A stretch of DNA of 54,920 bases from Caldifarciminota bacterium (GTDB lineage Bacteria; Hydrothermota; Hydrothermia; B15-G9): assembly GCA_015489175.1 (NCBI GenBank), contig WGAI01000037.1, forward strand, positions 1 to 54,920, written 5' to 3'. The notes below the pieces were generated by a model. It worked only from the letters and a program-made list of their open reading frames with translations. It had not been told where the DNA came from and searched no databases. Shown here piece by piece: positions 4,242 to 36,324 of this stretch. Position numbers and translations under genes: made by a program. The stretch's first letter is position 1. Each line of letters begins with the position of its first letter.

Positions 4242-6065
4242 TTATTCGGCCTTAGTCTCTTCGCTGTTCCCTTCTTCGTTGCTGTTGTTTTCTTCTTCAC
4301 TGCTTTCCTCTTCTTCACCACTCATAAGTTCTTGAAGTTTCTCAAGTTCCGTCTTGAGAATCTCGCCGAGGTTAATCTTGACGGGTTCAGATGACGCGCG
4401 CCTTGCGTTGAGCTCTGCCCTTTCCCGCTCGCGCTCTTTTGCCCTCCGCTCCGCCTCAATAGCACGGTAGTATTCGCGCTCGGAAAGGAGGATTCTCTTG
4501 CGCTCAGGCTCTATTTTCAGGACCTTGAGGTTGAGCTCTTCGCCGGGCTGATAGTTTTCTTTTGGGTTGCCGCGCTTGTGGAGCTGCGACTGCGGCACAA
4601 ATCCTTCAAGCCCTTCATCCACTTTGACGGTCACGCCACGCTCTCCGACCTCGATGATGGGCGCCTTGATGGCTGTGCCTACAGGCAGTTTCTCCATGAT
4701 CTCAGGCCACGGGTTGGGTCTCAACTGTTTCAGGCCGAGTTCCAGCAAACGGCTCTTGCGGTCGATGTTCAGGACTTTTAGTTTTAGCTTCTGCCCCTTG
4801 CGAAGTGCCTCAGATGGATGGCCAAACCGTTTCGTCCACGATATGTCGGCCACATGCAGGAATCCCTCAATCCCTTCCTCAAGCTCGATGTAAGCGCCAA
4901 AATTGCCGAACTCCTTGACCACGCCCTTGACGACCGAGCCGATGGGGTATTTCTCCTCTATCATCGACCATGGATCCGGCTTGGCCTGCTTCATCCCGAG
5001 CGAGATACGCTGTTTTTCGATATCAACATTCAAGACAACCACATCCACCTGATCGCCCTCTTGAACGAGATCTGACGGATGACGAGGCGGTTTGCCCCAT
5101 GTCATTTCGCTTATGTGGACGAGCCCCTCGATGCCGGGTTCCAACTCCACAAATGCACCGTAATCAACCACTTTCTTGACGATACCGGTGACCTTGGCGC
5201 CGATCGGGTATTTGCGGGCAACCTCTTCCCACGGATGCGGCATGAGGTGCTTGAGGGACAATGACAGCCTCATGTTGTCAGGATCGACATCGACGACCTT
5301 CGCCTGAATTCTATCGCCCTCTTTAACAACCTCAGATGGATGTTTGACCTTGTTCCATGACAGATCTGAGATGTGGATAAGGCCGTCTATCCCGCCGACA
5401 TCCACGAATACACCGAAATCGGTGATCGTCTTGACAGTGCCTTCCACAACATCGCCCTTTTTGAGCTGCATAAGGCGCTGTCGTGCTTCCTCTATCTGTT
5501 CCTCGATGACCTCGCGGCGGGATACGACAATGTTTTTGCGCGCCTTGTTTATCTTGATAACCTTAACTTTTATGTCCTTGCCAACGAATGCCGCTATGCT
5601 TTTAACACGCCGAACATCGATCTGGGATCCTGGCAGAAATGCATCAACGCCAAACACCTCGACTATCAGGCCACCTTTAACCTGACGAAGCACTTTGGCA
5701 TCAACAGTCTCGTTGTTTTGGTAGGCATCCTTTATGCGGTCCCACGCCATCAGGAAATCTGCTTTGTGTTTGGACACGATAGTTCTGCCGCCTTTCCCAT
5801 CGATAGCTTCCACATACACCTTTACCTTTTGCCCCGGCTCAAGGTTCATCTTACGGAATTCCGTCAGCGGAGCTACGCCTTCCGACTTAGCGCCGATGTC
5901 AATAAAGACTTCCTGAGGGGTAATTTTAACAATCGTCCCCTCAACGATATCTCCCTCCTTGGGAGGGTGCATACTTTGACTTAGTAACTTCTCGAACTCG
6001 TCAAGATCACCCCCTTTCATGGGTTCTTCTGGTGTTCCTCCAGTGTTCAGCCTTTCCTCTTGCAT
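4242..6065 (-). CDS. rpsA: 30S ribosomal protein S1
   Basis: A 607-residue protein with six consecutive S1 (OB-fold) domains of 70-80 residues. Domains 3-5 are the canonical ones ([68 protein letters not shown]). Domains 1 and 2 are the diverged ribosome-binding pair. A long charged helix ([19 protein letters not shown]) and a very acidic tail close the protein. S1 binds mRNA on the 30S subunit and helps initiation. The start at 6065 is set by AAGGAGGACT seven nt upstream. It is divergent from recA with its own promoter, and the terminator at 4194 ends the unit. Confidence 0.96.
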
Positions 6066-6113
6066 GGCTATAAGTCCTCCTTCAGAATGGATTTTGAAAA
6101 ACAAAGAGGTTTA

Positions 6114-6142
6114 ATTATCCATTGTTGGGCAGCGATTTGCAA
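6114..6142 (-). promoter_or_regulatory. Promoter of rpsA
   Basis: Minus strand: TTGCAA (6142-6137), 17 nt, GATAAT (6119-6114), about 48 nt before the rpsA ATG. Confidence 0.6.
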
Positions 6143-24755: not shown

Positions 24756-26144
24756 TTATCTGTTCAAAATGTGGATTGCTTTCCCATCGACTGCCTCGGC
24801 GGCCTCCATCAGGGTCTCCGATAGGGTTGGATGAGGATGAACCGTTGAACCAAGATCCTCGACCGTAAGACCGTTTTGTATTGCAATGACTGCCTCTCCT
24901 ATTAGGTTGGACGCGTCCGGACCGATGATGTGGACGCCAAGAACACGGCCGCTGTCTGCCTCGGCAACGATTTTGGTAAATCCCTCAAGATAACCCATAG
25001 ACAGAGCCCGCCCGTTTGCGCCGAACGGGAACTTGCCCGTGCGGACATCGATGCCCTTTTCCTTCGCCTCGCTCTCTGTCAGCCCTGCTGTGGCTATCTC
25101 AGGATCGGTGAATATCGCTGCGGGTATGATCGGCATGTCCCTTTTATCGCGCACTCCCGCAATAATTTCGGCCACCATGACGCCTTCCTTGTGGGCTTTG
25201 TGCGCGAGCAACGGCATAGAAGCCACATCCCCGATGGCGTAAATCCCTTCAACGGATGTCATGAACCTATCGTCCGTGGTTATAAATCCTCGTCTGTCAG
25301 TTTTGACGCCGAGTTCATCAAGCCCAAACCCTTTGCTCCTCGGCCGGCGTCCGATCGCTACCATCACTTTGTCAGCCTCAACTTTAACTTCCTTATCCCC
25401 CTGCCTTGCGATTAGAGTGACTTTTCCATTGTCTGTATCTATGGCTTCCACTCTCGTGCCCGTGAGCACCTTAATCTTCATGCGTTTGAGAAATCTGAGC
25501 ATCAGGGAGGCGATATCCTTGTCGATGCCGGGTAAAACCTGATCCATCATCTCAACGATAGTCACATTGGTGCCAAGTCTGGCATAGGTCATACCTATCT
25601 CGAGCCCTATCACGCCGCCGCCGACGATTGCAAGGTTCAGGGAGGAGGGGTCGAGTTTCAGGTCAAGCAGTTCCTTGCTTGTGAGGATGTTCTCGCCATC
25701 GAATTCGATGCCGGGGATAGGTAGCGGTTCCGAGCCGGTGGCAACGATGATGTTCTCCGCAGTGTAAACCTCTCCGTCAACCACCACTTCGCCTGGAGCG
25801 CGAACAACAGCGTCTCCCATTACGAAATTAACTCCATTTCCTTTGAAAAGAGTCTCTATGCCTCTGGCGAGCTTTGCGGAGACCGATTCCTTCCACGACT
25901 TCAGCTTGCCCATATCTACGGAGATGTTTTCAACGGTTATCCCGGCCCTTGAATACCTCTTCGGCGCATGCATCGCCTCTGTAGCAGAGATCAGGGCTTT
26001 GGTCGGTATGCATCCGTAATGGAGGCAGGTGCCGCCGATTTTGTCCTTTTCGACAACAAGGACGCTTTTTTTCAACTGTGCAAGACGGATGGCTGCCACA
26101 TACCCGGCTGAACCGGCGCCAATGACGATCGCATCGAATTTCAT
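24756..26144 (-). CDS. lpdA: Dihydrolipoyl dehydrogenase
   Basis: A 462-residue FAD/NAD disulfide oxidoreductase. It has the FAD motif GAGSAGYVAA at residue 9, the redox-active disulfide Cys40-Cys45 in GGTCLHYGCIPTK, the NAD motif IVGGGVIGLEIG, YAIGDVAS, and the C-terminal HPHPTLSE with the catalytic His-Glu pair. It reoxidises lipoamide in 2-oxoacid dehydrogenases or the glycine cleavage system. No E1/E2 or gcv gene is nearby, so the partner complex is elsewhere. Its start overlaps the holA stop by ATGA. Confidence 0.95.
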   Translation of the reverse strand: MKFDAIVIGAGSAGYVAAIRLAQLKKSVLVVEKDKIGGTCLHYGCIPTKALISATEAMHAPKRYSRAGITVENISVDMGKLKSWKESVSAKLARGIETLFKGNGVNFVMGDAVVRAPGEVVVDGEVYTAENIIVATGSEPLPIPGIEFDGENILTSKELLDLKLDPSSLNLAIVGGGVIGLEIGMTYARLGTNVTIVEMMDQVLPGIDKDIASLMLRFLKRMKIKVLTGTRVEAIDTDNGKVTLIARQGDKEVKVEADKVMVAIGRRPRSKGFGLDELGVKTDRRGFITTDDRFMTSVEGIYAIGDVASMPLLAHKAHKEGVMVAEIIAGVRDKRDMPIIPAAIFTDPEIATAGLTESEAKEKGIDVRTGKFPFGANGRALSMGYLEGFTKIVAEADSGRVLGVHIIGPDASNLIGEAVIAIQNGLTVEDLGSTVHPHPTLSETLMEAAEAVDGKAIHILNR

Positions 26145-27181
26145 CTCTTTTTCCTCCTTTTTGATTTACCGCTTGAAATATGAATTAAAACCTCAAGGAA
26201 CATCGTTTTCAAAAGCGTGGGACTGTCCTGAGGGTAAGTTTTCATGGCCATATCTGCTTCGACAAAACTGTCAAACACGGCCAGAAGCTCATAAACCCGC
26301 TTTTTACTGACAAACTCACGGTATTTTCTCACTAAGAATGACGGGAGCCTGACGCGCTGCTCGCCGTTTTTCAGGCTCAGCATCTTGACGAAAGAGCTCG
26401 CCGTTGTGGCCATTATCTGTCCAGCATAGACCCCATCGTTCAGGAGTACCTCGATGGTGGAAATTAGGGCTCTGCTGTTTCCATCCACAAGCATATTGGT
26501 TATCGCAAGCCCTTCTGCTTCACCAGAAGCGGCAAGGAAATTTAACATAGCCGCTTTGTCTATTTCACCGCCGTTTTCACCGAAATAAAGTGCTATTTTG
26601 TCCAGCTCATTGAGGATTGGTCTCATCTTGTCGGGCAATAGGTTGATGAACTCCTGCCACACCATGCGGTTGACTTTGAGCTTTCGCTTATCCAGCTCCC
26701 TTTTCAGCCACTGCTTGAACAGCGGCCCATCTTTGTCAAGAGTGGGGAAATGCACATAAACTGTTTGAGACGGAAGTATCTTTTTCAAACTTTTCTCAAT
26801 TCTGGATGGTTTGATGGAATAGTTTGTCTTGAACCACCTTTTAGATAACTCCTCAACGGAATCAGCGACAAGGATTATCACTCCATTTCGGATGGCCTCG
26901 TGAGCTCTAAACCCCATTTTCCAGTTCTTCAGTCTGTAAACCTGCCTAACTACCTCAACAATCGTAGAACTACTGCCGAAAAGATCGAGTTTACCAAGCT
27001 CCTGGAGAATGGCAGATGGCGTAGTTTCATCGCCCCAGAACACCCGTTTTTCAGCTTTAAGTCTTTCGACCATCCGGTCTATGGCGACATCTATGAGATA
27101 GTCCTCATCTCCTAAGAAAAAATAAAACGGGGAAAGCTTTATTCCCTGTATTTTCTTTAAAAATTCAATTCCATCAAGCAT
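26141..27181 (-). CDS. holA: DNA polymerase III subunit delta
   Basis: A 346-residue clamp-loader subunit. The N-terminal beta-clamp contact region is FYFFLGDEDYLIDVAIDRMVERL, followed by FGSSSTIVEV, IEKSLKKILPSQTVYVHFP, the LPDKMRPILNELDKIALYFG hinge and a helical C-terminal collar domain (LAITNMLVDGNSRALISTIEVLLNDG pattern). The P-loop is absent, as expected for delta. A basic tail KSKRRKKR ends the protein. It is divergent from the saccharopine dehydrogenase gene and co-transcribed with lpdA. Confidence 0.93.
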   Translation of the reverse strand: MLDGIEFLKKIQGIKLSPFYFFLGDEDYLIDVAIDRMVERLKAEKRVFWGDETTPSAILQELGKLDLFGSSSTIVEVVRQVYRLKNWKMGFRAHEAIRNGVIILVADSVEELSKRWFKTNYSIKPSRIEKSLKKILPSQTVYVHFPTLDKDGPLFKQWLKRELDKRKLKVNRMVWQEFINLLPDKMRPILNELDKIALYFGENGGEIDKAAMLNFLAASGEAEGLAITNMLVDGNSRALISTIEVLLNDGVYAGQIMATTASSFVKMLSLKNGEQRVRLPSFLVRKYREFVSKKRVYELLAVFDSFVEADMAMKTYPQDSPTLLKTMFLEVLIHISSGKSKRRKKR

Positions 27182-28690: not shown

Positions 28691-29122
28691 ATGGATGGAG
28701 CATCTCACTTCAAAAAGTTCATGTTAATCGCCGTCCTCGTTGCGACGGTTCTCGTAGCTGGCTGCAAATCCAGTAAGGAGCCCGTTACAGTTCGAAAGCA
28801 GAAGATAAAGGGTAACTTGAAAGTCGCTGTTATAAATTGTTCTGGCGTTGCAGACCTTGCGCGTAGAGTGACTTTCTGGCTCAGGGACATGGGGTATGAT
28901 GTCATTTACTATGGCTCTGAGTCAAAGCCCCTCGATAAGACTACGATTATCGACCACATAAAACGCAACAGGAAATATGGAAAAATGCTTGGAGTTTCAA
29001 TAGGTTGCGGAAATATCATCTATGAGCCTGACCCCGATTCCCTTTTCGATGTGACGCTTCTCATTGGAAAGGATTACAAAAAGTATTTCCGAGACGCCGC
29101 GCGTGAGAGGAAGCTCTACTGA
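28691..29122 (+). CDS. LytR_C-domain lipoprotein
   Basis: A 143-residue lipoprotein: KK-containing n-region, hydrophobic core and lipobox LVAGC with Cys25. The mature part matches the LytR_C domain found at the end of LytR-CpsA-Psr proteins: KVAVINCSGVADLARRV, a loop with T-rich connector, and the closing DVTLLIGKDYKKYF. The catalytic LCP domain is absent, so it is a stand-alone envelope module of unknown ligand. It is first in the operon; its stop overlaps the lpxB ATG (TGATG). Confidence 0.82.
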   Translation: MDGASHFKKFMLIAVLVATVLVAGCKSSKEPVTVRKQKIKGNLKVAVINCSGVADLARRVTFWLRDMGYDVIYYGSESKPLDKTTIIDHIKRNRKYGKMLGVSIGCGNIIYEPDPDSLFDVTLLIGKDYKKYFRDAARERKLY

Positions 29123-30234
29123 TGGGGATGAGGATCTTCATATCCGCCGGTGAGCCGTCCGGCGATCTGCATGCCTCTGCACTTGTAAGGTCGCTAAAAC
29201 GGCTGTTGCCAGACGCTCACTTTTTCGGCATGGGCGGCTCCTTGATGCGCAAGGAGGGCGTTGAGCTGATTCATTCTTTTGAAGAGAGATCGGTTATAGG
29301 TTTCCTTGAGGCTATCTTCGAGTTCCAACACCTGCACAGGATAATGGCCGATCTCGTGCGTGCTGCCCGAACGGCCGACATCGCCATAATGGTGGACTAC
29401 CCCGGATTTAACCTCACGCTCGCATCACACATAAAGCGCTACGACATCAACACAGTTTACTACATCGTTCCTCAGGTGTGGGCGTGGGGCGGATGGCGCA
29501 TCAGGAGTTTGAAACGATACATAGATCTTGCGCTGGTCATACTCCCGTTTGAGGAGCCGTTACTCAGGCGGTATGGGATAGATGCGAGATTTGTTGGCCA
29601 TCCCATCGTGGACATGATTGAGAGCGATAACGACATCGTTGAACTAAATCACGGTAAGCGGTGGACAGTTGGGCTATTGCCGGGTTCAAGGCCGGACGAA
29701 ATAAGGAGGCTCCTTCCGAGGATGCTGGAAATCAAGCGTCGGCTTGCTGAGAAGTTAAATCAGGATGTGTTTTTTCTGCTTTCGTTAGTGGACAATCGTT
29801 TCCTGAACGATGAAATTTTGGACGACCCTGACATCATGGTGCTTCAGGGCAGGGCTCGTGGCATAATGAGGGCGTCGGATATCGTTTTGCTCGCCTCCGG
29901 GACGGCATCGCTTGAGGCCGGACTGATCGGTGTGCCGATGGTTGTCCTTTACATGCTTTCCGATGTTTCATGGCTTCTTGCAAAGCTTATGGCCCGCGTG
30001 GAATACACAAGCCTCGTTAACATACTACTGAACGAAGAGGTTGTGCCCGAATTTATACAGCATGTGCATGCCGATGAGATCGCCGAACTTATGCATGACC
30101 TCATCACGAACTACGAGCTCAGGCAGAAGATGATTAACAGGCTTGCTGAGTTGCATGGCCTCCTTTCCAGACGGGGAGCGGCTGAAAGGGCTGCCGGGTA
30201 TATCGTCGAAAAATTCGTTGTCTCAAAGCTGTGA
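29122..30234 (+). CDS. lpxB: Lipid-A-disaccharide synthase
   Basis: A 370-residue GT19 glycosyltransferase joining UDP-2,3-diacylglucosamine and lipid X. It has FISAGEPSGDLHASAL at the N-terminus, MVDYPGFNLTLA, YYIVPQVWAWG, FVGHPIVD, LLPGSRPDEI, and the C-terminal LLASGTASLEAGLIGVPMVVLY with a family-typical Glu. It acts at the inner face of the cytoplasmic membrane. This is the clearest evidence that the cell has a lipid A outer membrane. It is coupled to neighbours on both sides (TGATG; GTGA). Confidence 0.96.
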   Translation: MGMRIFISAGEPSGDLHASALVRSLKRLLPDAHFFGMGGSLMRKEGVELIHSFEERSVIGFLEAIFEFQHLHRIMADLVRAARTADIAIMVDYPGFNLTLASHIKRYDINTVYYIVPQVWAWGGWRIRSLKRYIDLALVILPFEEPLLRRYGIDARFVGHPIVDMIESDNDIVELNHGKRWTVGLLPGSRPDEIRRLLPRMLEIKRRLAEKLNQDVFFLLSLVDNRFLNDEILDDPDIMVLQGRARGIMRASDIVLLASGTASLEAGLIGVPMVVLYMLSDVSWLLAKLMARVEYTSLVNILLNEEVVPEFIQHVHADEIAELMHDLITNYELRQKMINRLAELHGLLSRRGAAERAAGYIVEKFVVSKL

Positions 30235-31784
30235 ACGGACTGCTCATCATCATAGCCATAAGTTCAGGGCGCCTGTTTGCATCCTTTGACCTGTTCGAGA
30301 ACCTGTCTGCTGCCTCTTTCATCTATCAGCACGACACATCAAGCATGTCGTTCAGCCTCTCCTCGTTCTCAAAAAACGACTGGTTGATCAACCGCCGCAT
30401 CAGGCAGTTGGAGTTCCTGACCTCTTTCAGGAATAGAATCGGCATTGCCTCAATGGAGTTCAGGTTTGTAGGCTCGGAGAGAAGGGAAAACATGGCGCTC
30501 GCAAGGGAAATGAAGTTCGATGCGATCTCTTCGGTCTCAATTCGCCAGAACTTTGAGTTTAACAACGATGTCCGGTTCGATCTCCAGAAACTCGGTGGCG
30601 CAGTTTACACCGCTGACAATTCAGGCGTTAGCATAGACAGCAGGCTTGGCTGGTCGAGCGAGGAACAATCCGCCTCTCTTTACACCAGAATGGACAACAA
30701 AAGGCTGATAACACGGGCGTTGCATGGAGTTCAGTTCTCGTCTAAATGGCATCATATCGGGCTCAACATCGACGGAAAAGCGGAATACGAGACCAACAGC
30801 TACGAGCTGGCGGGCGTGAGGGATAGGGAATTCAGGAAAGGTGGAGAGCTCTCCTCTCGGTTTTCCAATTCATCCGTAACAGTGGAAGTGAATGCAGGTG
30901 CATGGGATTACACCTACCTGAAGTCACGGACGCGCAACCATTTCGTCAAAAGTCTGGATTTTACGGCCAGAAGCCAGCTCGACTGGGGGGCATCCGTCAT
31001 GAACATAGAGTTCTCCAGTGGATTGAACGACAACATATTGAGCACGATATCATTGTGGGAGAAGGTCCGCTCTCACACCCTTCAATTTAACTACACGCAC
31101 GGTGAATTCGTCGGCAGGTTCAGAGCATCGATAAAGCGGTTCTATTATCCGTCTGTAAAACCGGACGACAGGGATGAGAGGTTGATCGAGACATCCGTTG
31201 CACTCCTCAAACATCCAATATGGAACTCGTTTTTTGACATTGAATTAGGCGTCAGGCAAAACGATTTTGTGTTCGTCAGGGCGGAACGCTCCGCTAACAC
31301 CCGCAGGCGCCAGATATACTTCATCAAGAACGGATACATTTACAACGGCCCCGTTGAGGTCAAGGCGTCGAATGAGATCGCTGCGTTTTACACATTCTAT
31401 CGGTTTGACCCGGCTCACGATATGCTGTTGCGCTACATTGACATTGACATAGACATTTCCAGAAAATTTAATTTCACCGTGTTGAACATATCGGTGAGGC
31501 ATAAGTTAAGCGATTATGGCCGATTTTTCGAGGATGTGTATTACCGCCGTTCGGCATCGCGGGAATACTGGATAGACTGGGGCGTGTTGATAACTCGTGT
31601 GCATGGCTTTAATCTCAACCTACGCATGGAAAATTACATGAAAACGGAGAGGATTTTGAGGTATATGGAATCGAAACTTAGCGTCACCCTTCAGAAAAGG
31701 GATGAGAAGTTTGGGTTGTCATGGGTAAATCGAAATGGCAGGAAGTTCTTGACCATGTCACTCAGCTTCGAAAGGGGGTTTTAA
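30231..31784 (+). CDS. Probable outer-membrane beta-barrel protein, unknown function
   Basis: A 517-residue protein starting at a GTG that overlaps the lpxB stop. A hydrophobic leader (about residues 2-18) is followed by repeated amphipathic strands with alternating aromatic and polar residues (SMSFSLSSFS, ASMEFRFVGSE, FNYTHGEFVGRFRASIKRF). It ends LTMSLSFERGF with a terminal Phe, as beta-barrel proteins recognised by BamA do. I recognise no family. Its place after lpxB suggests an envelope role, and the KaiC-like ATPase gene follows after 1 nt. Confidence 0.7.
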   Translation: MNGLLIIIAISSGRLFASFDLFENLSAASFIYQHDTSSMSFSLSSFSKNDWLINRRIRQLEFLTSFRNRIGIASMEFRFVGSERRENMALAREMKFDAISSVSIRQNFEFNNDVRFDLQKLGGAVYTADNSGVSIDSRLGWSSEEQSASLYTRMDNKRLITRALHGVQFSSKWHHIGLNIDGKAEYETNSYELAGVRDREFRKGGELSSRFSNSSVTVEVNAGAWDYTYLKSRTRNHFVKSLDFTARSQLDWGASVMNIEFSSGLNDNILSTISLWEKVRSHTLQFNYTHGEFVGRFRASIKRFYYPSVKPDDRDERLIETSVALLKHPIWNSFFDIELGVRQNDFVFVRAERSANTRRRQIYFIKNGYIYNGPVEVKASNEIAAFYTFYRFDPAHDMLLRYIDIDIDISRKFNFTVLNISVRHKLSDYGRFFEDVYYRRSASREYWIDWGVLITRVHGFNLNLRMENYMKTERILRYMESKLSVTLQKRDEKFGLSWVNRNGRKFLTMSLSFERGF

Positions 31785-31785
31785 G

Positions 31786-32667
31786 ATGGCACAGGATCGC
31801 GAGAGGAAGGTCATCAAAGATGGAGTTGAGCTCCTTGGCGAGGCTGCTGAGCGGGCACCTGAGTTAAAAGGCGTGCCGAGCGGCGTTGAGGGTCTCGACG
31901 AACTTTTCTTTTACTCGAAAATAGAGGACGGAAGACCCAGAAAAATTCCGCTTGGCGGCTATCCCGCTTATGCCGTGGTCAACCTCACCGGCGTGCCCGA
32001 CACTGGTAAATCACTTATGGCAGAGCAGTTCGCAGTGAAACAGGCTTCGCTTGGAAAAAGGGTGGCGTTTATCACGGTGGAAAGCCCATCTGCGTTCGCT
32101 TCATCTGCTTTGAAAATACGGGCGATGGCGATGGGAATAGATCCGGCTGAGATCGAAGACAAAATTGTCCTGATCGATGCAGCGTCGTATGCGGTTCTGC
32201 GGGAGGATATCCCATCACTGTTGGATACACTCGCCTATGCCATAAAGACATACAAGATCAAATACACGGTCATCGATTCGATAACCGGTTTATACGAAGC
32301 GAAGGAGATGCTGGCCCGGAGCATCGTCAGGCAGCTTTTCAATTTCATGAAAAAGTGGTATCAAACCGCCATCTTCGTCTCACAGAAGCGGTCAGGGCAT
32401 GAGGAACTGTCGGCGGAGGCAGCCGGCGGTTACGCAATAGCTCACATAGTCGATTGCACGCTGGTGTTGTCCAAAACCATGATCAAAAGCCGCTACGATG
32501 AAGCGCTTTACAATCGGCCGATAGGTGAGCTTGTGAGGCTGTTCAGGATAGATGGATGCAGGCTTTGCGGACATGACACGGACACGCATTTCATGGAGAT
32601 AACCGAGACCGGGCTTGTGAAGATCGGCCCATCGTTAAAAGAATTAAAAACAGCGAGCAAAAAATAA
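31786..32667 (+). CDS. KaiC/RecA-like ATPase with C-terminal Cys-His motif
   Basis: A 293-residue cytoplasmic RecA-fold ATPase with GVPSGVEGLDELFF at the entry, Walker A GVPDTGKS (69-76), FITVESPS with possible catalytic Glu99, and Walker B TVIDS (Asp164). A C-terminal DGCRLCGHDTDTH carries Cys258, Cys261, His263 and His268, which could bind a metal. Similar single-domain KaiC-like proteins are common in archaea and seen in scattered bacteria; their job is mostly unknown. It is not RadA (no N-terminal zinc finger, no Lon-like domain). GGGGGTT lies before the ATG. It is embedded in an envelope operon with two small membrane proteins behind it. Confidence 0.85.
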   Translation: MAQDRERKVIKDGVELLGEAAERAPELKGVPSGVEGLDELFFYSKIEDGRPRKIPLGGYPAYAVVNLTGVPDTGKSLMAEQFAVKQASLGKRVAFITVESPSAFASSALKIRAMAMGIDPAEIEDKIVLIDAASYAVLREDIPSLLDTLAYAIKTYKIKYTVIDSITGLYEAKEMLARSIVRQLFNFMKKWYQTAIFVSQKRSGHEELSAEAAGGYAIAHIVDCTLVLSKTMIKSRYDEALYNRPIGELVRLFRIDGCRLCGHDTDTHFMEITETGLVKIGPSLKELKTASKK

Positions 32668-32669
32668 CC

Positions 32670-32888
32670 ATGGCAAAAAGGACATGGCTGACAAAAGAGA
32701 GAAAGCAAAAACTTGGGGGATACATCATCGACATGAGCAAGATCCTCGCCGGTGGCTATCTGCTTAAGTATCTGACCGGCGAGCGTGAGATGAACTATCC
32801 GCAACTCGCTCTGGTGACAATTTTGTGGATTTTGATGTTATACATAGGATTGTATCTTGTTGCGCCAAAGGAGGAGAGAAGGAAATGA
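32670..32888 (+). CDS. Small membrane protein, unknown function
   Basis: A 72-residue protein with a basic N-terminus (KRTWLTKERKQK), a possible short amphipathic helix and one clear transmembrane helix (about residues 46-66), ending in a charged tail PKEERRK. Gap to the KaiC-like gene is 2 nt, and it overlaps the next gene by ATGA. No SD is visible, so translation probably depends on coupling. I recognise no family. Confidence 0.7.
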   Translation: MAKRTWLTKERKQKLGGYIIDMSKILAGGYLLKYLTGEREMNYPQLALVTILWILMLYIGLYLVAPKEERRK

Positions 32889-33514
32889 GTTTCCTTATTT
32901 TGATAAGCATAATCCTGCTTTTTATAGGCCTTGCCATACTGTGGAGTGAATGTGATGAGGGCGAAGGGGGACCGTGTTATATCAAGTGGGGGATCCTGTG
33001 GCTGTTCAGGAAGAAAGGGATTTTGGTGCTTTTGATCCTCGTTATAGGCGGAGGAATTGCAGGGTATTTCGTTTATTACATGCCACTTGCCTCTAAAATG
33101 CAGCCTGCCCGTTTGCCGAGGGGCGATGTCTCTCAGCCCCGCTTTTTCATAAACCGCGTCGGAGAACACGGCAAAGTCACATCAACGAAGCTCCCGTCAG
33201 CTTATATAAACGATGAAGGTGAGCTCGAGATAGTCATCGGCAGCGGCACGGCTGCGCAGAGCGAGGTGCTCGGCCCCGTCGTGATCTACTACACGGAAAA
33301 CTCCGTCCCGGTGAGGGCTAAGGTGCTGTTGAGATCCGAGAAGGGCATTCCGGAGATCGAGTACGACGGGCAGCTCGGAATTATCTCGATAATTTTCAGA
33401 CCTAATGCTCGAATTGCGAAAGCCGTAAGCAGCGGGAAAGGCGTTGCCTATTTCGACAAGAACGGCAACATCGTTCGGGTCGAGATCCCGAATGTCCATA
33501 TACCCGGTGAATGA
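32885..33514 (+). CDS. Two-helix membrane protein with soluble C-terminal domain, unknown function
   Basis: A 209-residue protein with transmembrane helices at about residues 1-18 and 44-64, a short loop holding Cys23 and Cys31, and a 140-residue outer or periplasmic domain rich in beta strands (YINDEGELEIVIG, LGPVVIYYTEN, GVAYFDKNGNIVRVEI). AGGAGAGAAGG and the ATGA overlap fix the start at 32885. It is the last gene of the lpxB operon. No family is recognised. Confidence 0.72.
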   Translation: MSFLILISIILLFIGLAILWSECDEGEGGPCYIKWGILWLFRKKGILVLLILVIGGGIAGYFVYYMPLASKMQPARLPRGDVSQPRFFINRVGEHGKVTSTKLPSAYINDEGELEIVIGSGTAAQSEVLGPVVIYYTENSVPVRAKVLLRSEKGIPEIEYDGQLGIISIIFRPNARIAKAVSSGKGVAYFDKNGNIVRVEIPNVHIPGE

Positions 33515-33789
33515 GTGAGACATGTGGTTTAGCGTGAGCCTAACATCTTTCAAAAGCATTATGGACGAATTTAGGAGGACTTAAGAAGCCGTGCATGAGT
33601 TTGTAGATGTTCATCCCTGACAACTAAAATCCCCACGCCATTGAGCCGGCATGCCCTTTGAACCAATAAGCTATCGAGCTTAGTAAATCAGGTTGTAGCA
33701 TGGGGGCAAATCGATCTCAGATCCCGTTGTATATGGAGCTTGCGGAGCCACATGAGTTATAATCAAAGCAAATTTAAGGGGGAATGAAA
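33515..33789. other. Intergenic stretch without a recognisable gene
   Basis: 275 nt between two plus-strand genes. It holds a 20-codon frame (33535-33597) and another 20-codon frame ending at 33763 that end in TAA, but neither has an SD or a recognisable sequence. AAGGGGGA at 33776-33783 is the SD of the next gene. No clear terminator or promoter was found. Confidence 0.6.
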
Positions 33790-36324
33790 ATGGCCGATGG
33801 TAAGAATAAAACAAAAGCGGTAATAATGGCTGGAGGTTTTGGAACACGCATAAGGCCTCTTACAACCAATCTCCCGAAACCGATGCTGCCGCTCGTCAAC
33901 CGCCCCATACTTGAGCACATAATTGGGCTTCTGAAGAAACACGGCCTCGACGACATCATAATGCTGCTCTATTACCACCCGGATGTGATCAAAAACTACT
34001 TCGGAGACGGCAGCGAATTCGGCGTTTATATCGAATACACGATGCCGGACAGGGATTACGGGACAGCCGGTGCCGTCCGATACGCAAGGGAGCTCATCGG
34101 AGATAGCAGGGTGCTTATCATAAGTGGTGATGTGCTAACCGATTTTGACATCTCAAGCCTCCTTAAGTTCCACATGTCAAAAAAGGCAGAGGCCACTATA
34201 GGGCTGACACGCGTCGAAAATCCACTCCAGTTCGGCATAGTCATAACGGACGAGAAAAACCGAATTATTAAATTTCTCGAAAAGCCAACATGGGGCGAGG
34301 TCTTTTCTGACACTATCAACACCGGCATCTATGTGCTCGAACCGTCGGCCATCGACTCCATACCGGAAGGCGAAGAATACGATTTTTCCAAGAACCTGTT
34401 TCCGAAAATGCTGTCCGAGAGCCGTCCTCTTTTCGGCTACATCATGGAAGGATATTGGCGCGACATAGGCGATCCGGATTCTTACAGGGAAGCGCACTAT
34501 GACATATTTGAGGGCAAAGTTGAGGTGGATGTCCCCGGCGAGAAACTCGACCTTGTCGGGCGCGATGTTCGCGTTGGCAAGGATGTGGCCATCGGCCCAA
34601 GGACAACATTTAAGGGCACGGTGATAATCGGTAATAACACTCGAATTCATGGCCATGCAGTGCTTGAGGACTGCGTCATCGGCGCAAACTGCATCGTCGA
34701 GGAAGGTGTCAAGCTCAGCAGGGCGATAATCTGGGACAACGCTTACATCAGAGAGAACGCCACTGTCATGGGCGCCGTCGTTATGAACGGAGTTCGCGTC
34801 GGAGAGGATGCGGTCATCGAAGAAGGAGCGATCATAGGCGAGGAATGTTCCATCGGCAGGGAGGCGCACATCCAGAAAGGCATCAAGATCTGGCCGAAAA
34901 AGGTCATCGAGGAGGGAGCGGTTGTCTCTCAAAACCTCGTATGGGGCGAAAAATGGCGCAAGTCTCTGTTCGAGGGCGCAAAAGTCACAGGGCTGACCAA
35001 CATAGAACTGACTCCTGAGTTGTGTGCCAAACTGGGAGCTGCTTACGGCTCGATCCTGCCGAAAGGTGCGAGTGTCCTGACAGGCAGGGATTCACATCCG
35101 TCATCTCGTATGTTGCGCAGGGCTTTCGTAGGAGGACTTGCGTCCACTGGCGTTGACATCAAAGACGCCCGCGAGGTGCCCATCCCGATATTCAGATACA
35201 AACTTCAGAGTTTCGGCGAACTCGGCGGCGTGTTCTTCAGACAGGCGCCTGACGACCCGCCGTCAACTGAGATCCATTTCTACGACTCGAGCGGACTTGA
35301 CCTGCCTACGGGAACGGGGAAATCCATAGAGAGGATCTTCTACCGCGAGGATTTCCGCCGTGCTCATTTCAACGAACCGGGCGAAATCATACCGATGCCT
35401 TACCTCTTCGAGTTCTACAAGGAGGGTTACCTGAAGGCTCTGGACATCGAGGCTATCAAATCGCGCAAATTCAAAGCGGTTATAGATTTCTCTCATGGCT
35501 CAACGGCACTGGATTTCCCGGAGATATTGAACAACCTCGATGTGGACTTCGTCACCCTCAACGCTTACATCGACTATCTCAAACTCTCGAAAACAGAGGA
35601 CGAGATAAACAAAGCGCTAAGTCGGCTTGCGACAATCGTTACCACCCTGCAGAGCGACACCGGGTTCTACCTGTTCCCCAACGGCGAGCGACTGATACTC
35701 GTCGATGAAGAGGGGAAAATCCATCGCGGACTTGACCTTGTGCTTCTCATCTCGGCGCTCGTCATGGAGGCTTCGGAGGAGCCCGGCAACATAGCGGTGC
35801 CTGTTTATGCCCCATCCACGCTTGACGAACTGGCTCGGAAAAAGGGCTTTACCGTGAAACGCATTTCCAGCGCCCCGCGCAACCTCTCAGAAGCCGCTCA
35901 GGAATATGGAACTGTGCTTGTGGCATCGGCTTATGGTGAATTTATATTCCCTGAATTCCAGATCGTGCCCGATGGCATGTTCACAATAGGGAAGCTGATG
36001 GAGATAATGTCCAAACTCAACTTGAAGCTGTCCGAATTTGCTGCCGATCTCCCACGAAGGGCGATGGAATACACGAGGGTGGCCTGCCCGTGGGATCTCA
36101 AGGGCACCGTGATGCGCAAAATGAGCGAGCTTGCGCAGTCATACGAAGAAGCATCTTTCCTCGACGGCGTCAAGGTGTTCGACGGAAACGATTGGGCGAT
36201 GGTGCATCCTGATCAATTTAAACCTTACATCCACATCTTCGCAGAATCCGATTCGCCCGGGAAAGCAAAAGAGTTGCTGAACGAGTTCTCCGCCAGAGTT
36301 AAAGAGTGGATAGAAGGAAAGTGA
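33790..36324 (+). CDS. Sugar-1-phosphate nucleotidyltransferase fused to a degenerate phosphomannomutase-like domain
   Basis: An 844-residue fusion. Residues 8-235 are a nucleotidyltransferase (IMAGGFGTRIRPLT, LPKPMLP, ISGDVLTDFD, FLEKPTWGE, NTGIYVLEP). Residues about 250-385 are left-handed beta-helix hexapeptide repeats. The rest has the length and order of a phosphohexomutase, but the phosphoserine loop TASHNP is replaced (GGVFFRQAPDDPP, 479-491) and the metal loop DxDxDR by SDTGFYLFPNGERL (622-635). The mutase half is therefore probably inactive and regulatory. This architecture is usually annotated mannose-1-phosphate guanylyltransferase; the sugar is uncertain. The ATG at 33790 is preferred over 33784 for its 7-nt SD spacing. 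Confidence 0.88.
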   Translation: MADGKNKTKAVIMAGGFGTRIRPLTTNLPKPMLPLVNRPILEHIIGLLKKHGLDDIIMLLYYHPDVIKNYFGDGSEFGVYIEYTMPDRDYGTAGAVRYARELIGDSRVLIISGDVLTDFDISSLLKFHMSKKAEATIGLTRVENPLQFGIVITDEKNRIIKFLEKPTWGEVFSDTINTGIYVLEPSAIDSIPEGEEYDFSKNLFPKMLSESRPLFGYIMEGYWRDIGDPDSYREAHYDIFEGKVEVDVPGEKLDLVGRDVRVGKDVAIGPRTTFKGTVIIGNNTRIHGHAVLEDCVIGANCIVEEGVKLSRAIIWDNAYIRENATVMGAVVMNGVRVGEDAVIEEGAIIGEECSIGREAHIQKGIKIWPKKVIEEGAVVSQNLVWGEKWRKSLFEGAKVTGLTNIELTPELCAKLGAAYGSILPKGASVLTGRDSHPSSRMLRRAFVGGLASTGVDIKDAREVPIPIFRYKLQSFGELGGVFFRQAPDDPPSTEIHFYDSSGLDLPTGTGKSIERIFYREDFRRAHFNEPGEIIPMPYLFEFYKEGYLKALDIEAIKSRKFKAVIDFSHGSTALDFPEILNNLDVDFVTLNAYIDYLKLSKTEDEINKALSRLATIVTTLQSDTGFYLFPNGERLILVDEEGKIHRGLDLVLLISALVMEASEEPGNIAVPVYAPSTLDELARKKGFTVKRISSAPRNLSEAAQEYGTVLVASAYGEFIFPEFQIVPDGMFTIGKLMEIMSKLNLKLSEFAADLPRRAMEYTRVACPWDLKGTVMRKMSELAQSYEEASFLDGVKVFDGNDWAMVHPDQFKPYIHIFAESDSPGKAKELLNEFSARVKEWIEGK

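Follow-up and report, generated by a model that had tools for sequence, protein, structure and literature searches.

A TIGR03878 KaiC-like ATPase next to a probable outer-membrane barrel and two small membrane proteins in a family of Hydrothermota

The six-gene array and its products

In this work we analysed a 54.9-kb stretch of Hydrothermota DNA (54,920 nucleotides, referred to below in its entirety as the window), in which six genes of the forward strand follow each other at positions 28691-33514. The first codes for a LytR_C-domain lipoprotein-like protein of 143 aa (28691-29122; PF13399, 46 bits against a cut-off of 22.2, E 1e-11) and the second is lpxB, specifying the 370-aa lipid-A-disaccharide synthase (29122-30234; TIGR00215, 259 bits against a cut-off of 190; LpxB 7.9e-87). 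These are followed by a GTG-initiated gene for a probable outer-membrane beta-barrel of 517 aa (30231-31784), the gene of a 293-aa RecA/KaiC-fold ATPase (31786-32667; TIGR03878, thermo_KaiC_2; KaiC/PF06745, 5.9e-57), and genes for two membrane proteins of 72 aa (32670-32888) and 209 aa (32885-33514). The successive junctions are a 1-nt overlap, a 4-nt overlap, a 1-nt gap, a 2-nt gap and a 4-nt overlap. The array thus agrees with the first-pass annotation in its open reading frames and tight junctions, and the LytR_C, lpxB and KaiC-fold identities given there are confirmed by Pfam/TIGR scores well above cut-off. Comparison with a congener, G001 (95% complete), gave dN/dS values of 0.05-0.14 for all six genes, which indicates purifying selection, so none of them is a chance reading frame.

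Two further genes of the window deserve mention. At 33784-36324 a fusion protein of 846 aa combines a nucleotidyltransferase, hexapeptide repeats and a phosphoglucomutase/phosphomannomutase-like part, scoring below all NCBIfam cut-offs shown, and at 26141-27181 of the reverse strand a 346-aa product matches PF21694 weakly, below the cut-off, and is probably a DNA polymerase III delta subunit that has diverged very far.

The 517-aa product had no Pfam match. Its AlphaFold model, of low confidence (mean pLDDT 50), consists of almost nothing but strands, about 25 in number, and nearly all Foldseek matches at E<=0.001 were outer-membrane barrels, with low TM-score; judged from this model, the protein is probably an outer-membrane beta-barrel. 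Distant homologues within the class lie on contigs other than that of the ATPase and have varied neighbours. Two of them (L195:4974-9282 and L202:4448-7868) are located directly before DUF58-like and BatA-type-like genes, as read by eye.

Hydropathy analysis found one strong helix in the 72-aa protein and two in the 209-aa protein, as had been predicted for both. The former is weakly DUF6722-like (PF20482): it scored 21.3 bits (E 3.3e-4) and its orthologue from the sister genus, G003, 25.7 bits (E 1.4e-5), both below the gathering cut-off of 27. In the latter, two N-terminal helices enclose a strongly conserved Cys-containing loop and are followed by a beta-rich domain; this C-terminal part resembles DUF2283 weakly, with matches at corresponding positions of two orthologues (14.9 and 14.8 bits, below the cut-off of 23). 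Profile searches of 147 genomes of the phylum returned clear members of the 72-aa family from the window's genome (G000), G001 and G003 only, and of the 209-aa family from the same three genomes together with a contig-end fragment in G002. More distant relatives of either protein in the phylum gave weak matches only (E 1.5e-4 to 0.009), and three of these, when checked, had neither the ATPase nor the partner gene in their neighbourhood. Defence-system, phage and PDB searches with the membrane proteins yielded no convincing match, and Foldseek with the 209-aa model none at E<=0.001. As far as these searches reach, the two appear to be uncharacterised membrane proteins restricted to the window's family.

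The ATPase and its helix-turn-helix partner

The ATPase aligns with positions 1-258 of the 259 of the TIGR03878 profile at 436.6 bits (cut-off 232.2) and, by this match, is clearly assigned as an ordinary member of this known thermophile family. In an alignment of 94 sequences its Walker A motif, GVPDTGKS, is conserved family-wide. The C-terminal Cys-Cys-His-His motif mentioned in the first-pass annotation is present as C-x2-C-x-H-x4-H at residues 258, 261, 263 and 268, and belongs to a signature of the whole family, FRIDGCRxCGHD (C258 100%, C261 84%, H263 100% and H268 87% of the same 94 sequences); being family-wide, it tells nothing special about the window operon. Members scoring above the cut-off were found in 28 of 60 relatives, and the loci that we sampled, the best 80 of 124 related places in the genome collection, carry mostly thermophile labels (Aquificota, Desulfurobacteriaceae, Nitratiruptor, Dictyoglomaceae), although such bin labels may err. 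A literature search on TIGR03878, TIGR03879 and DUF505 found no papers.

Other KaiC-like proteins are related more remotely. The RecA/KaiC fold is shared, by sequence, with the circadian KaiC kinase and with archaeal KaiC-like ATPases (PH0284, 2dr3), but circadian KaiC has a double KaiC domain, whereas the window protein has one, and it reaches 29.4 bits against the circ_KaiC equivalog cut-off of 546.25; there is no sign of a circadian clock. ArlH/FlaH, the KaiC-like ATPase at the archaellum membrane motor, has the fold in common and offers a precedent for a membrane-associated role, but with 32 bits the window protein is far under the ArlH cut-off of 215.

The commonest recognised neighbour of the ATPase gene encodes a helix-turn-helix protein, TIGR03879 ("near_KaiC_dom"). 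Of the sampled loci, 75 extend 800 nt or more on the downstream side; in 30 of them it follows within 1.2 kb, and in the remaining 45 no such neighbour is recognisable there; in relatives from the same class a TIGR03879-domain protein of about 205 aa often directly follows the ATPase. In 40 class-level genomes the two families co-occur in 26, both are missing from 11 and one stands alone in 3 (26/1/2/11; Fisher p 3.8e-7, which is only a guide as the genomes are related and shared ancestry was left uncorrected). Two of the three discordant genomes, G002 and G036, are highly fragmented assemblies.

In several class relatives (L045/L124, L057/L114, L132, L136) the order ATPase, TIGR03879, DUF505, SDH-type Clp-fold protease recurs. 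A macro-domain gene comes after the ATPase and TIGR03879 genes at L040/L118, L059/L123 and L078/L131, and at L118 an AIM24 gene lies between the two. Neighbours in other classes, identified by eye from the sequence, include a helix-turn-helix protein, a PP2C-like phosphatase and flagellar-like genes. At four Aquificaceae-labelled loci (L048, L050, L064, L071) the next gene after that of the ATPase encodes a 71-72-aa XRE-type-HTH-like protein, perhaps another DNA-binding partner. We considered this gene as a homologue of the 72-aa gene of the window and rejected it, as its product has no membrane helix and looks, by eye, XRE-type-HTH-like.

Where relatives often have the TIGR03879 gene alongside, the window ATPase has the barrel and the two membrane proteins instead. 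The partner module is nevertheless encoded in the window's genome (2.06 Mb, 77 contigs, 96% complete), on other contigs. An intact stand-alone TIGR03879 gene of 204 aa lies on contig C73 (5606-6220; match at 5858-6142, 118.9 bits), away from the ATPase and with opposite-strand neighbours on both sides, and a DUF505 protein is encoded on contig C33, also apart from the ATPase. From these two positions it follows that in this genome the pair was split with both parts retained, and the C73 protein is likely the partner of the window ATPase, separated from it in the window's family. In G001 the search for TIGR03879 gave no match.

The four-gene block and the genes upstream of it

In G003, a sister genus of the same family (about 80% complete), the order barrel, ATPase, 72-aa protein, 209-aa protein is kept together with the short spacing, the barrel orthologue standing directly upstream of the ATPase. 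The 11-kb contig of G003 has no further gene with a counterpart in the window, and as the block represents the only synteny that contig and window share, there is good evidence that it forms a family-specific four-gene operon. The first-pass annotation had asked whether the ATPase and the two membrane genes are conserved together: they are so in G000, G001 and G003, which represent two genera of the window's family and where the barrel joins them as the fourth gene, but, as far as searched, nowhere else. Among the best 80 of 124 related loci, only two, both of the window's family, contained the 72-aa, 209-aa or barrel genes. TIGR03878 genes occur in dozens of unrelated contexts without those partners, an outcome that the first-pass annotation had itself named as refuting its interpretation; that interpretation is thus supported in part, for the operon and for the joint conservation of the genes within the family. 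We regard the arrangement as mostly ordinary, a lineage-specific variant around an ordinary ATPase.

The upstream genes change. The genomes in which LytR_C, lpxB and barrel genes were seen in this order, G000, G001 and G002, belong to a single genus, a LytR_C orthologue preceding lpxB in both G001 and G002; the assembly of G002 is highly fragmented, with pieces of the block at contig ends. In G003 it is metK that lies upstream of the barrel, 6 nt away, and lpxB is not at that place. Some caution is needed here, as lpxB was not found anywhere in this assembly of about 80% completeness. The lpxB loci of other orders have neither the barrel nor the ATPase gene and often continue with genes for an isomerase-like protein and a nucleotidyltransferase (read by eye, apart from BLAST matches). 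The upstream genes are thus probably incidental, because the block follows lytR_C-lpxB in the window's genus and metK in its sister genus.

It had been suggested at first that an ATPase-membrane complex could serve lipid A synthesis or transport. The 4-nt overlap of lpxB with the barrel gene and the recurrence of this order in G001 and G002 speak for such a complex; metK in place of lpxB before the block of the sister genus, the lack of lpxB near any of the roughly 80 sampled ATPase loci (best 80 of 124) and the different neighbours of lpxB in other orders speak against it. Taken together they confine the pairing to a single genus and make such a complex very improbable, so we rejected the link; the connection is probably local to the genus and incidental. 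None of our analyses gave support for an ATP-driven complex that exports lipid A or the barrel.

Possible roles of the ATPase in the operon

The explanation that we favour, and hold somewhat probable, is that an envelope operon has captured the gene of a regulatory ATPase, which acts in trans together with the TIGR03879 helix-turn-helix protein. The ATPase would be an oligomeric, ATP-dependent regulator working together with that protein. In an ancestor of the Hydrothermota family its gene would have left the place beside the TIGR03879 partner and become the second gene of an operon with the barrel, 72-aa and 209-aa genes, and its product would still act with the partner, now encoded alone elsewhere in the genome. 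As we know of no characterised TIGR03878 protein, a regulatory role rests on context. It is suggested by the helix-turn-helix partner and by the role proposed for KaiC-like ATPases in archaea, that of hubs of signal transduction (stated in PMC5847659). Counted against the regulatory explanation are the lack of a TIGR03879 match in G001, the 45 of 75 loci without a recognisable downstream copy and the tight linkage of the four genes, which could reflect a genuine link in function between the ATPase and the membrane proteins.

Such a link would be expected if the ATPase and the 72-aa and 209-aa proteins formed a membrane-tethered, ATP-driven or ATP-gated complex that serves the barrel in its assembly, in gating or in surface export, an old ATPase having been put to a use specific to this family. 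The order and tight spacing of the block in two genera, on a contig otherwise unmatched in the window, agree with this, as do the strongly conserved loop with Cys that joins the two helices of the 209-aa product and the purifying selection on all genes. On the other hand, the ATPases of the window's family differ from the rest at only two family-specific, otherwise conserved positions, a mild argument against a heavily remodelled interface, since a new essential one would probably have left more, and the barrel has homologues in the class with no ATPase nearby. We consider a complex of this kind unlikely, and more doubtful still is its fullest form, a four-protein envelope machine that has recruited a KaiC-like regulatory ATPase and uses two new membrane proteins to link the ATP cycle of the latter to the barrel. 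The four genes might also be merely co-transcribed in a compact thermophile genome, sharing a promoter and no common function. The variable contexts of the ATPase across taxa and the different upstream gene in the two genera fit this possibility, which we consider about as unlikely as the complex; it is opposed by the retention of exactly four genes across two genera when the rest of the 11-kb contig has no counterpart in the window.

With the regulatory ATPase and its partner in trans as the preferred explanation, what looked like an odd pairing of a KaiC-like protein with lipid A synthesis becomes a widespread but, to our knowledge, unstudied thermophile ATPase with a recurrent helix-turn-helix partner, and one lineage where both have been separated. 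That lineage represents a natural experiment on whether the ATPase depends on its helix-turn-helix partner or is able to adopt new ones in the membrane.
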